Origin: Alphaproteobacteria bacterium | GTDB taxonomy: Bacteria > Pseudomonadota > Alphaproteobacteria > Micropepsales > Micropepsaceae | Direction: 5' to 3' | DNA: 64,000 nt | Assembly: GCA_025350465.1 (NCBI GenBank) | Contig: JANXXU010000008.1 | Location: 62,001 to 126,000, forward strand | Shown here: piece by piece, positions 48,070 through 52,074 of the stretch | Numbering within the stretch: the first letter of the stretch is position 1 | Layout: each line of letters begins with the position of its first letter | Made by a program: the position numbers and the translations under genes | The notes under the pieces: generated by a model | Told to the model about the DNA's origin: nothing | What the model saw: the letters and a program-made list of their open reading frames with translations, nothing else | Databases searched by the model: none

Positions 48070-49611
48070 TCATTTCCAGATCGGCTTACCCGACCCGGGC
48101 AGGCCGAGGCGCGACCACTTTTCGGTCACCACCTCGATCACCGCCTTGTCCATTTGGATGAGGCGGCCCCATTCGCGCTTCGTCTCGGGGTGCAGTTTGT
48201 TGGTCGCGTCGAGCCCGATTTTGCCGCCGAGTCCGGACTCGGGCGACGCGAAGTCCAAATAATCGATCGGTGTGTTTTCGATAAGCGTGACGTCGCGCAC
48301 CGGATCCATGCGGGTCGAGATCGCCCACATCACGTCTTTCCAATTGCGCGCGTCGATGTCCTCGTCCACGACGATCAGCCACTTCGTGTACATGAACTGG
48401 CGCAAATAAGACCAGGCGCCCATCATCACCCGCTTGGCGTGGCCGGGATAAGCCTTGCGCATGCGAATGACGGCGATGCGATAGGAGCAGCCTTCCGGCG
48501 GCAGCCAGAAATCGAGGATCTCGGGAAACTGCTGTTGCAACAGCGGAATGAACACCTCGTTGAGCGCCTCGCCGAGCACGCTCGGTTCGTCGGGCGGGCG
48601 TCCCGTAAACGTCGACAGATAGATCGGCTCGCGCCGCATGGTGATCGCGGTAACGTTGAACACCGGAAATTGCTCGACCGAATTGTAATAGCCGGTGTGA
48701 TCGCCGTAGGGACCCTCGTCGCGATAGTCCTCGAGCGAGACGAGGCCCTCGATCACGATCTCCGCTTCCGCCGGCACTCTCAGCGGCACGGTCTTGCAAT
48801 CGACAAGCTCGACGCGTTGTCCGCGCAGCAAGCCGGCGAATTGATATTCGCTGAGCGTATCCGGCACCGGCGTCACCGCGGCCAATATCGTTCCCGGGTC
48901 GGCGCCCAGTACGCAGGCCGCGGGCAGAGGCTCGCGCTTTTCCTTTTTCCAGCGCGCATGATGCTGCGCGCCGCCGCGATGCTTGAGCCAGCGCATCAGC
49001 GTTTGGTTCCGCCCCGTCACCTGCATCCGATAGATGCCGAGATTGTAGTTGTCCTCGCGCCCCTCGCCCGGACCTTTGGTCACGACAAGCGGCCAGGTGA
49101 TCAAAGGCGCCGGTTCGCCGGGCCAGCAAGTTTGAATCGGCAGTGCATTCAAGTCGATGTCGGCGCCTTGCAGCACGATCTCTTGGGCCGGCGCCGCGCC
49201 ACCGAACATCCCGCCGACGGTCTTCGGCTTCATCGCCATCACCGTGCGCGCGAGCGGCCAAAGTTCGAACGCTTCGCCGAACGAACGTGGTGGCTCAGGC
49301 TGGCGCAAGAAAGCGAGCGTCTCGCCGACCTCGCGCAAGCTCATGGCGTCGCGCCGTTCTTTGCCGTCCATCGTCACCGCCATCGCGACGCGCTTGACCG
49401 TGCCGAAAAGATTGACAAGCACAGGGATGGGCGAGGGCTTGCCGTCCGCCCGGATCGGCTTTTCGAAAATGACCGCGGGCCCGCCCTCGGCGAGCAGGCG
49501 CGTTTGAATCTCCGTCATCTCGAGCACGGTCGAGACAGGCTCGCTCACGCGCACGAGCTCGCGCTCGGCTTCGAGCTTCTGGATGAAATCGCGCAACGAT
49601 TTATAGGGCAT
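48070..49611 (-). CDS. ubiD: UbiD family decarboxylase
   Basis: 513 residues; prenylated-FMN-dependent decarboxylase, probably 3-polyprenyl-4-hydroxybenzoate decarboxylase of ubiquinone synthesis. Starts [16 protein letters not shown]. Key blocks: [19 protein letters not shown] (FMN and metal site), ASSEEE-equivalent [29 protein letters not shown] (catalytic Glu and metal ligands) and [20 protein letters not shown] near the C-terminus. Other UbiD members act on different aromatic acids. UbiX, which makes prFMN, is not visible, but ubiA lies about 5 kb away on the same strand, which favours the ubiquinone role. Confidence 0.92.
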
Positions 49612-49678: not shown

Positions 49679-50770
49679 TCAGGGCATGGCGCCGATATAA
49701 ACCGAGCTCGGCCTGAGCAACCGCCCACGCCGGAGCTGCTCTTCGATATGCGCCGTCCATCCGGCGATCCGTGCGACAGCAAAGGTCGGCGTGAAAGCGG
49801 CGCGCGGTATGTCGAGCGCATCGAGCAGCAACGCCGTGTAGAACTCGACGTTAGTGTCGAGCGGCCGGTCGGGTTTGCGCTTGGCGAGGGCAGCGCGAGC
49901 AGCGGCTTCGACCTCAAGCGCGAAGGCGAGCCGCCGATTGGACGGATTGAAGCGCTCGAGCGCGGCCTTCAGAACATCGGCACGCGGATCGCGCACGCGA
50001 TAAACGCGATGACCAAATCCCATCAGCCTGTCGCCGCGATCGAGCTCTGCCTCGATCCACGCGCCGATGCGTTCGCGCGTGCCGATGGCATCGAGCATGT
50101 CGAGCACCGGCTCCGGCGCGCCGCCGTGCAGCGGTCCCGTCAGCGCGCAGTAAGCGGCGGTGACGCCGGCAAAAAGGTCGGCGTGGGTTGAGGCGACGAC
50201 CCGCGCCGCAAAGGTCGACGCGTTCAAGCCGTGATCGATCGCCGTGACAAGATAGGCGTCCATCGCCGCGGCTTCTTTGTCGGTGGGCGCGTTGTGGCCC
50301 CGCATCATCTGCAAATAGTCGGCCGCGTGGCCGAGCGATGGATTGGGCGCGACGGGCGCAAGCTTGCGCTCCTTGCGCACAAGCGCGGCGGCAATGACGG
50401 CGGCTGCGGCGGTTGCCAAAACACGCGGCGCGATCCCATCCCGAGGGTGCAAAGCGGCGAGTGCCGCGCGGAACGCGGCAATAGAGTCCATGCCATCTGT
50501 CCCGGCGAGCAGTCGCTTGATGTCGGCGAAGACGGCGACTCGTGCATCCGCCAAAGCGCGGCGCACTTCTTCAGCGCTGATCGGTTTGCCGGACGCCGCC
50601 GACCACAGCAGCGCGGTCGCATGCTCGTAGCCGCCTTCATGGACGAGTTCGCCTACATGCCGGCCGGCGATGATCAGCTCGCCGCGCTCGCCATCGACAT
50701 GGCTCAAGGTCGTTTCGGCGGCCGGGACATTGTCGAGACCGATGGCGGGCTTGGGCGCATGGATCGTCAT
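49679..50770 (-). CDS. Citrate synthase homologue with catalytic Asp replaced by Glu
   Basis: 363 residues starting MTIHAPKPAIGLDNVPAAE, preceded by a strong GGAGGT. The citrate synthase fold is intact: HVDGERGELIIAG, TGPLHGGAPEPV (His 215), MGFGHRVYRVRDPR (His 254). At the third catalytic position, where citrate synthases have Asp in N-V-D, this protein has Glu (NVEFYTALL, Glu 309). The change is conservative and occurs in some short citrate synthase-like proteins. It may make citrate, 2-methylcitrate or another product. It is divergent from an HTH-fused homologue, with 71 bases and a palindromic site array between, so the fusion probably controls it. Confidence 0.88.
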   Translation of the reverse strand: MTIHAPKPAIGLDNVPAAETTLSHVDGERGELIIAGRHVGELVHEGGYEHATALLWSAASGKPISAEEVRRALADARVAVFADIKRLLAGTDGMDSIAAFRAALAALHPRDGIAPRVLATAAAAVIAAALVRKERKLAPVAPNPSLGHAADYLQMMRGHNAPTDKEAAAMDAYLVTAIDHGLNASTFAARVVASTHADLFAGVTAAYCALTGPLHGGAPEPVLDMLDAIGTRERIGAWIEAELDRGDRLMGFGHRVYRVRDPRADVLKAALERFNPSNRRLAFALEVEAAARAALAKRKPDRPLDTNVEFYTALLLDALDIPRAAFTPTFAVARIAGWTAHIEEQLRRGRLLRPSSVYIGAMP

Positions 50771-50809
50771 GGGGGACCTCCGTGTTCCCCAAAATTTGGC
50801 TATCCTTGT

Positions 50810-50843
50810 AATATTGATCAATATTGATTAGGCTCATCAATAT
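50810..50843. promoter_or_regulatory. Palindromic operator array in the divergent citrate synthase intergenic region
   Basis: A perfect 16-bp palindrome AATATTGATCAATATT occupies 50810-50825. A third half-site ATATTGAT (50821-50828) and a fourth inverted half-site ATCAATAT (50836-50843) follow, the last overlapping the ATG of the HTH-fused gene at 50842. The A+T-rich run is conspicuous in this G+C-rich DNA. Four half-sites between two divergent genes, one encoding a protein with a DNA-binding domain, suggests autoregulation and control of both genes. Binding itself is inferred. Confidence 0.75.
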
Positions 50844-52074
50844 GAAGAAAAACGCCAACCCGTTGTTCCTGTCGGCCAAGGAGGCGGCGGCCGAACTATC
50901 GATCTCGCTGCCCACGCTCTACGCCTATGTCAGCCGCGGCTTCGTTCGCTCGGAAGCCGGACCCGAGGCGCGCACGCGCCGCTACCGCGCCGACGACGTA
51001 CGCATGCTGAAGGGCCGTCGCGCTCCACCCGGCGATGCCGACGCGGTCAACGAAAAGGCGCTCGATTGGGGCGGTCCCGTCCTTGAGTCCGCGATCACCG
51101 CGATCGACGATATGGGCCCGATCTATCGCGGCGTTCCCGCCGTTGCGCTTGCCGAGAACGCCTCGTTTGAAAGCGTCGCGACGCTTCTATGGGATACGGA
51201 CGGCGACCCGTTTGCGGCGCCCGCGCCGGTCGTCGGCAAGGACATCGCCGACGTCATGCGCACGATGCAGAACGCGCCCGCGGTCGATCGCGCCATCGTG
51301 ATGCTGGCGATGGCAAACAGCACCGATGCGGCAGCCTTCAACCGCAGCAAAGAGGGCCGCCTCGCCACCGCTGCGCGCATCGTGCGTTTGACGACGGCCG
51401 CCATCACCGGAGCACCGGTGTCGGCCGCGCCTATCCATCGCCAGGTCGTGGACGCTTGGCTGCCCGCGCTCACCGGAGCAAAGAAGGAAGCCGCCGCCGA
51501 TCTTCTGCGCCGCGCGCTCGTTTTGCTCGGCGATCATGAGCTCAACGCCTCGACCTTCACGGTTCGCGTCGCGGCTTCGACCGGTGTGAATCTCTACGAC
51601 GCCGTCATTGCCGGCTTATGTGCGGTAAAGGGGCCGCGCCACGGCGGCGTCGGCATCAGCACGGCGCGTCTCGTCGAAGCGTTCGCGGAACGCGATCCGG
51701 CTGCGGTGGTGCGCGAGCGGTTGGAAATGGGCGAACGCCTGCCTGGGTTCGGGCACCAACTTTACCGTCTCGGCGGCGATCCGCGTTCGAAATCGCTCCT
51801 CGGCGCCCTGAAAACAGCGCCCGCGCGCCTCGTCAAAGACGCACCTGGCGCGGTCGAGGAAGCCACCGGCCAGTTGCCCAACATCGACTACGCACTCGCC
51901 GTCATGTGCCGTACGCTGGGCCTGCCTGCCGGCTCCGAGCTGACGATGTTCGCGCTTGGCCGCACGTCGGGCTGGATTGCGCAGGCGATCGAACAATACG
52001 AACAAGGCGGCCTCATTCGCCCGCGTGCGCGCTACGTCGGCCCGGCCGCTCGGACGCCTCCCGAAACACGATAG
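50842..52074 (+). CDS. Citrate synthase fused to an N-terminal MerR-like helix-turn-helix
   Basis: 410 residues from MKKNANPLFL. Residues about 8-55 form a winged HTH of the MerR/excisionase type: LSAKEAAAELSISLPTLYAY, then RRYRADDVRML, where the RRY and DV residues are hallmarks. The rest is a citrate synthase domain with all three catalytic residues: GPRHGGVG (His 267), GFGHQLYRLGGDPR (His 305) and LPNIDYALAV (Asp 349). Note GHQLY where most have GHRVY. The start codon overlaps an operator half-site. Likely a metabolite-sensing transcription factor, perhaps still enzymatic. The 3-prime end overlaps the convergent methyltransferase gene by 43 bases. Confidence 0.88.
   Translation: MKKNANPLFLSAKEAAAELSISLPTLYAYVSRGFVRSEAGPEARTRRYRADDVRMLKGRRAPPGDADAVNEKALDWGGPVLESAITAIDDMGPIYRGVPAVALAENASFESVATLLWDTDGDPFAAPAPVVGKDIADVMRTMQNAPAVDRAIVMLAMANSTDAAAFNRSKEGRLATAARIVRLTTAAITGAPVSAAPIHRQVVDAWLPALTGAKKEAAADLLRRALVLLGDHELNASTFTVRVAASTGVNLYDAVIAGLCAVKGPRHGGVGISTARLVEAFAERDPAAVVRERLEMGERLPGFGHQLYRLGGDPRSKSLLGALKTAPARLVKDAPGAVEEATGQLPNIDYALAVMCRTLGLPAGSELTMFALGRTSGWIAQAIEQYEQGGLIRPRARYVGPAARTPPETR

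Follow-up and report, generated by a model that had tools for sequence, protein, structure and literature searches.

A citrate synthase fused to a winged helix-turn-helix domain as a predicted one-component regulator with a conserved candidate operator

A 64,000-nucleotide stretch of alphaproteobacterial DNA (the window) was analyzed around a gene that encodes a winged helix-turn-helix (HTH) domain ahead of a citrate synthase (CS) domain. The protein, referred to as HTH-CS, is, very probably, a citrate synthase-derived transcription regulator. Its role as a local, autoregulating one-component regulator at a candidate operator in positions 50818 to 50840 is put forward with good confidence, and the reading judged most likely from sequence comparison is that it acts strictly locally, regulates itself, and uses the CS pocket as its sensor. 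A conserved predicted operator is present at its own and the neighboring promoter, as is characteristic of one-component regulators. Coordinates of the genes, domains, and sites are provided in Table 1.

Table 1. Features of the HTH-CS/CitA locus, in positions of the window
Feature	Position	Strand	Description
CitA-type citrate synthase, divergent partner	49679..50770	-	363 aa; ATG 50770, stop 49679; NCBIfam NF009005; Glu at catalytic Asp position (NVEFY)
GGAGG ribosome-binding site of CitA	50777..50781	-	Direct reading of sequence
Predicted CitA promoter	50793..50821	-	-35 TTGATC 50821-50816, 17-bp spacer, -10 CAAATT 50798-50793
Predicted HTH-CS promoter	50806..50834	+	-35 TTGTAA 50806-50811, 17-bp spacer, -10 TAGGCT 50829-50834
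Candidate operator TCAATATTGATTAGGCTCATCAA	50818..50840		Half-sites TCAA 50818-50821, TTGAT 50824-50828, ATCAA 50836-50840
HTH-CS gene	50842..52074	+	410 aa; ATG 50842, stop 52074; winged HTH + CS domain; proposed one-component regulator
Winged HTH domain, residues 9-59	50866..51018	+	Pfam matches, family conservation, AlphaFold2 model
Flexible linker, residues 63-79	51028..51078	+	pLDDT below 50
Citrate synthase domain, residues 80-404	51079..52053	+	His232, His267, His305, Arg315, Asp349, Arg374, Arg393 all present

The fusion protein and its divergent partner

Pfam Citrate_synt (PF00285) matched residues 77-395 of HTH-CS (E = 4e-61), and HTH_17 and MerR_1 matched residues 9-54 and 11-57, respectively, with E about 1e-4 and, for the full-length window protein, scores slightly below the curated Pfam cut-offs. 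The HTH is nonetheless taken to be real because HTH_17 matched 46 of 47 HTH-CS family members (best match, 3e-11); MerR_1 matched 43 of the 47 at E ≤ 0.01. The AlphaFold2 model (whole-protein mean pLDDT, 92) contains a confident winged HTH and a CS fold, and the closest solved folds found with Foldseek were citrate and 2-methylcitrate synthases. Sequence and model agree on the fusion of a DNA-binding domain and a domain of ligand-binding type in one chain. Residues T25, Y27, S31, and R32 of the HTH are invariant, the HTH is among the most conserved parts of the protein, and the helix at residues 23-31, with the family-conserved stretch TLYAYVSRG, is likely the recognition helix.

The divergent gene scored 406.6 bits against the NCBIfam citrate synthase NF009005 (cut-off, 332), which places its product in that family. 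The best PDB match was 2c6x, Citrate synthase 1, which likewise has NVEFY. In the alignment, each of the 49 CitA proteins linked to HTH-CS has Glu in place of the catalytic Asp and thus lacks the Asp general to citrate synthases; as the 2c6x chain shares the Glu, this residue may be the norm in the CitA subfamily. Another contig of the same genome encodes a third, separate citrate synthase. A UbiD-like decarboxylase gene (named by inspection; 48070-49611) lies after CitA on the same strand at a short gap, and cotranscription of the two is possible.

A preliminary description of this DNA had proposed an HTH ahead of a CS domain at 50842, His 267, His 305, and Asp 349 as its catalytic residues, and a citrate synthase homologue as the adjoining divergent gene, all of which hold. 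To be corrected are the CitA start, placed at 50770 with 71 bp (50771-50841) between the two genes, the catalytic Asp of CitA, which is a Glu, and the relation of the two proteins, which are no recent duplicates.

HTH-CS and CitA are 28% identical, and in a maximum-likelihood tree, the HTH-CS domains form one clade (support 100/100) apart from CitA (95/97), PrpC, and GltA. Two citrate synthase genes side by side could be the outcome of a recent local duplication in which one copy gained an HTH, with no functional link between them. The separate, well-supported clades and the low identity rule this out, the two genes are paired repeatedly across Pseudomonadota and also in records of Acidobacteriota and Chloroflexota, and the duplication is given a negligible probability.

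In an active-site alignment of 101 HTH-CS proteins, the 49 CitA proteins, PrpC, and GltA, His232, His267, Arg315, Asp349, Arg374, and Arg393 were kept in 101/101 HTH-CS and His305 in 98/101. PrpC and GltA have their catalytic His/His/Asp at the positions of His267, His305, and Asp349. Residue roles were assigned after pig and Escherichia coli citrate synthase. Because all oxaloacetate-binding and catalytic residues are retained, the oxaloacetate/citrate pocket is complete and is consistent with a sensor or an enzyme, and enzyme activity may persist since the catalytic Asp and His are kept more strictly than a pure sensor would need. HTH-CS might then be a trigger enzyme, that is, a working (methyl)citrate synthase as well as a regulator, in which turnover or open/closed motion of the CS domain would report the supply of oxaloacetate and acyl-CoA to the promoter. 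The near-complete retention of these residues, the intact fold, and the Asp that CitA has replaced by Glu speak for such a dual role, while the His305 -> Asn exchange in two paralogues, the presence of another citrate synthase and CitA in the same genome, and the Pro found in 64/101 proteins in place of the basic residue after FGHxxY (position 309) speak against it, and it is offered tentatively. Loss of CoA binding through this Pro was considered and dropped, since PrpC has Thr at the position.

In L015 and L018, the loci of these two paralogues, HTH-CS is present as a second copy next to a beta-lactamase-like gene, with the degenerate operator TCAATCTTAAATCAACGTGTTAAC; the paralogues are possibly subfunctionalised.

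A conserved site upstream of HTH-CS genes

HTH-CS genes were present in 19 of 61 relatives searched. A contig scan returned at least 594 candidate relatives. The best 80 were retained, and they represent Alpha-, Beta-, and Gammaproteobacteria and Deinococcota, with further members in metagenome assemblies labelled Acidobacteria, Chloroflexi, Gemmatimonadetes, and others. In an even sample of 299 Pseudomonadota genomes, 41 (14%) carried HTH-CS, with 42 genes in total. Both the HTH and the CS domain were covered in 42/42 of these genes, and CitA was the divergent gene at 29/42 loci. Among the first 101 loci, the automatic call was CitA in 53, including one (L078) in which PrpB and PrpC had been read as a single frame.

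The consensus upstream of HTH-CS, TCAAtcTTGAT-N6/7-ATCAA, is 22-23 bp long and near-invariant, often with the start codon directly 3' of it. The pattern TCAA..TTGA.{8,9}TCAA was found upstream of 131/142 HTH-CS genes (110/119 after removal of near-copies), compared with a chance expectation of 0.007 per shuffle (first-order Markov) and 0/404 control windows inside genes. Half-site positions approach 2 bits of information, and flanking promoter positions also carry information, whereas the spacer is low; mere shared descent of the region as a whole does not explain a pattern confined in this way with the spacer left free. A few HTH-CS genes have no recognizable site upstream (e.g., L070, L115, L136, and L163), and among these L115, L136, and L163 form an HTH-CS subgroup adjoining a cation-efflux-like gene.

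In each of the 19 relatives with HTH-CS, a perfect site abuts the gene. Among the 42 relatives without HTH-CS, 7 contain the site, with 10 scattered copies in total, which is chance level, as a reversed control pattern gave 9 over all 61. A stricter 23-bp site was counted 36 times over some 218 Mb from 37 genomes with HTH-CS, and 35 of these occurrences abut HTH-CS. The lone exception (L160 and L164, G328:C3) lies ~2.9 kb upstream of HTH-CS at the head of an apparent SDR-MFS-VOC-HTH-CS operon (names by inspection), divergent from a D-2-hydroxyacid dehydrogenase-like gene; here, HTH-CS comes last, and its recognition helix is altered (TVYAYASRG). The genome of the window contains one perfect site. 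A wide regulon is ruled out, the site being near-unique per genome.

Two further loci differ in layout. At L023 (G009:C401), HTH-CS and CitA are separated by a serine hydrolase/beta-lactamase-like gene that resembles the neighbor in L015 and L018, with an operator copy at each end. At L162 (G079), which has a 16-bp-spaced operator, HTH-CS is divergent from a tripartite tricarboxylate transporter binding protein-like gene (by inspection), another citrate-type link.

The operator stays constant while the divergent partner varies. In Lysobacteraceae and Rhodanobacteraceae (Xanthomonadales; L067, L078, L096, L097, L099, L112, L114, and L116), the divergent gene is PrpB, and a tested representative scored above the NCBIfam cut-off for methylisocitrate lyase. 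Several of the loci have PrpC-like genes nearby, and the one tested passed the 2-methylcitrate synthase cut-off. Records from Burkholderiales, Azospirillum, Pseudomonas, and Ewingella have a divergent family III CoA-transferase-like protein (two tested, below any NCBIfam cut-off), and those from Deinococcota have a divergent HMGL-type synthase, also below cut-offs. HTH-CS is taken as the natural owner of the site because it alone is constant among the loci.

The preliminary description had proposed that the fused protein controls its divergent relative and had made this depend on conservation of the HTH and of the pairing. Both are conserved, and the regulatory half of the proposal is strongly supported by the pairing and the operator-like site; the target, however, is not always a citrate synthase relative, since PrpB, CoA-transferase-like, and HMGL-type genes occur with the same operator. 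The direct setting of transcription by substrate or product, which the description also proposed, would act through the fully conserved pocket and is a prediction.

The HTH could instead be vestigial, with HTH-CS a plain citrate synthase isozyme and the site belonging to another regulator. HTH-CS goes under no other database names than citrate synthase family protein and the like, and the window protein scores just short of the curated Pfam HTH cut-off, which would fit such an isozyme. The site, however, accompanies HTH-CS whatever the partner, genome, or phylum and falls to chance-level matches where HTH-CS is missing, and the HTH is too well conserved for a relic, so that a vestigial domain is very improbable. 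Given the comparisons above, HTH-CS almost certainly binds DNA at the candidate operator and is very likely to control the divergent gene.

Promoters, predicted mode of action, and ligand

A generic promoter scanner found no promoter; the hexamers in the window are weak, and the promoters in Table 1, including their start sites, were inferred from sequence. In HTH-CS loci, a TAnnAT -10 is conserved on the plus strand between the second and third half-sites. Outside the half-sites, the CitA, CoA-transferase, and PrpB groups all keep an A at -25 and a T at -21. Read on the minus strand, these two bases fit the xAxxxT of a -10, with a TTGA[TC]C -35 at a distance of 17 bp. The predicted CitA -35 overlaps the first half-site of the operator. 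In the window and the nearest relatives, the HTH-CS start codon falls at about +1 of the predicted promoter, which would give a leaderless mRNA. The predicted spacers, 17 bp on both strands, would differ from the 19-20 bp of MerR-type promoters.

In the proposed mechanism, HTH-CS would bind the 23-bp operator through its winged HTH and, when bound, would cover its own -10 and the citA -35, shutting both promoters, and a ligand filling the CS pocket would alter or relieve its hold on the operator. Repression of both promoters is most likely because the operator overlaps these two elements, and repression is rather more probable than activation. HTH-CS could alternatively activate the divergent gene, in a class II or MerR-like manner, while repressing itself. 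The operator lies on and just upstream of the predicted CitA -35, where class II activators bind, and covers the predicted HTH-CS -10, as activation of this kind would have it, although half-site one overlaps the -35 hexamer itself and the predicted 17-bp spacers are short of the 19 bp of MerR promoters; activation is considered unlikely, if by no means far-fetched.

The ligand is suggested, with modest confidence, to be an oxaloacetate-derived acid (citrate or 2-methylcitrate) or oxaloacetate plus acyl-CoA. The PrpC product 2-methylcitrate is a reported PrpR coactivator in Salmonella enterica and Corynebacterium glutamicum (PMC9765439), and this, together with the prp linkage in Xanthomonadales, points to a citrate-type acid. 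In the genome of the window, no MmgE/PrpD match was found, PrpB homologues were found only below the cut-off, and methylmalonyl-CoA mutase homologues are present. For these reasons, a complete methylcitrate cycle is unlikely here, CitA was rejected as the methylcitrate synthase of this organism, the output gene is taken to be the minor citrate synthase CitA, and citrate or oxaloacetate plus acyl-CoA is a likelier ligand than 2-methylcitrate. The ligand argument draws on neighbor genes only, and these vary among lineages. More broadly, there is about an even chance that HTH-CS represents a widespread, undescribed transcription factor family that senses central metabolism via an active or near-active citrate synthase, in which the CS domain, by closing on oxaloacetate with acyl-CoA or on citrate or 2-methylcitrate, would gate binding to one dedicated operator per genome, and to which different lineages would have wired different acyl-CoA/oxaloacetate genes.

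Comparison with known systems

MocR/PdxR, BzdR, PutA, and BirA are enzyme-derived one-component regulators that resemble HTH-CS in joining a DNA-binding domain to an enzyme fold as effector and in being often autoregulated and divergent from their target; they differ in that the effector fold of HTH-CS is citrate synthase, and we know of no described regulator with that effector fold. MerR and excisionase proteins (MerR_1, HTH_17) share the N-terminal winged HTH, but HTH-CS has a CS domain instead of the usual MerR effector region and a different predicted promoter spacer. The type II citrate synthases and PrpC (3o8j, 3hwk) share the fold and active-site residues, at about 26% identity, whereas HTH-CS has an extra N-terminal HTH and linker and falls in a separate clade. 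In Bacillus subtilis, the minor citrate synthase CitA is likewise divergent from its regulator, CitR, which, unlike HTH-CS, belongs to the LysR family. PrpR proteins control prp genes, as is predicted for HTH-CS where it adjoins prpBC in Xanthomonadales, and to our knowledge are unrelated to HTH-CS and have no CS domain. The PrpR regulators of the methylcitrate cycle comprise a Fis type, a GntR type, and the Mycobacterium tuberculosis PrpR (PMC9765439, PMC6765138). In an earlier survey, as far as it is cited by PMC9765439, Fis-type PrpR was assigned to all Xanthomonadales analyzed, whereas the Lysobacteraceae and Rhodanobacteraceae loci described here have HTH-CS at prpBC.

A gene that many genomes have annotated as a metabolic enzyme thus becomes a predicted regulator with a predicted DNA target in about one in seven of the Pseudomonadota genomes sampled, and a defined operator sequence makes DNA binding and ligand directly testable. 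If the CS pocket is the sensor, nature would already have supplied, in HTH-CS, a biosensor for acids of the citrate type or for acyl-CoA status, and HTH-CS would be a clear case of a central-metabolism enzyme recruited as a transcription factor. A search of the open-access literature, which covers few subscription journals, returned no account of an HTH-citrate synthase regulator family and no trace of the name PrpQ, and a prior description is possible. One-component regulators that sense through an enzyme fold are known as a kind, and the citrate synthase version with its dedicated predicted operator appears to be new.
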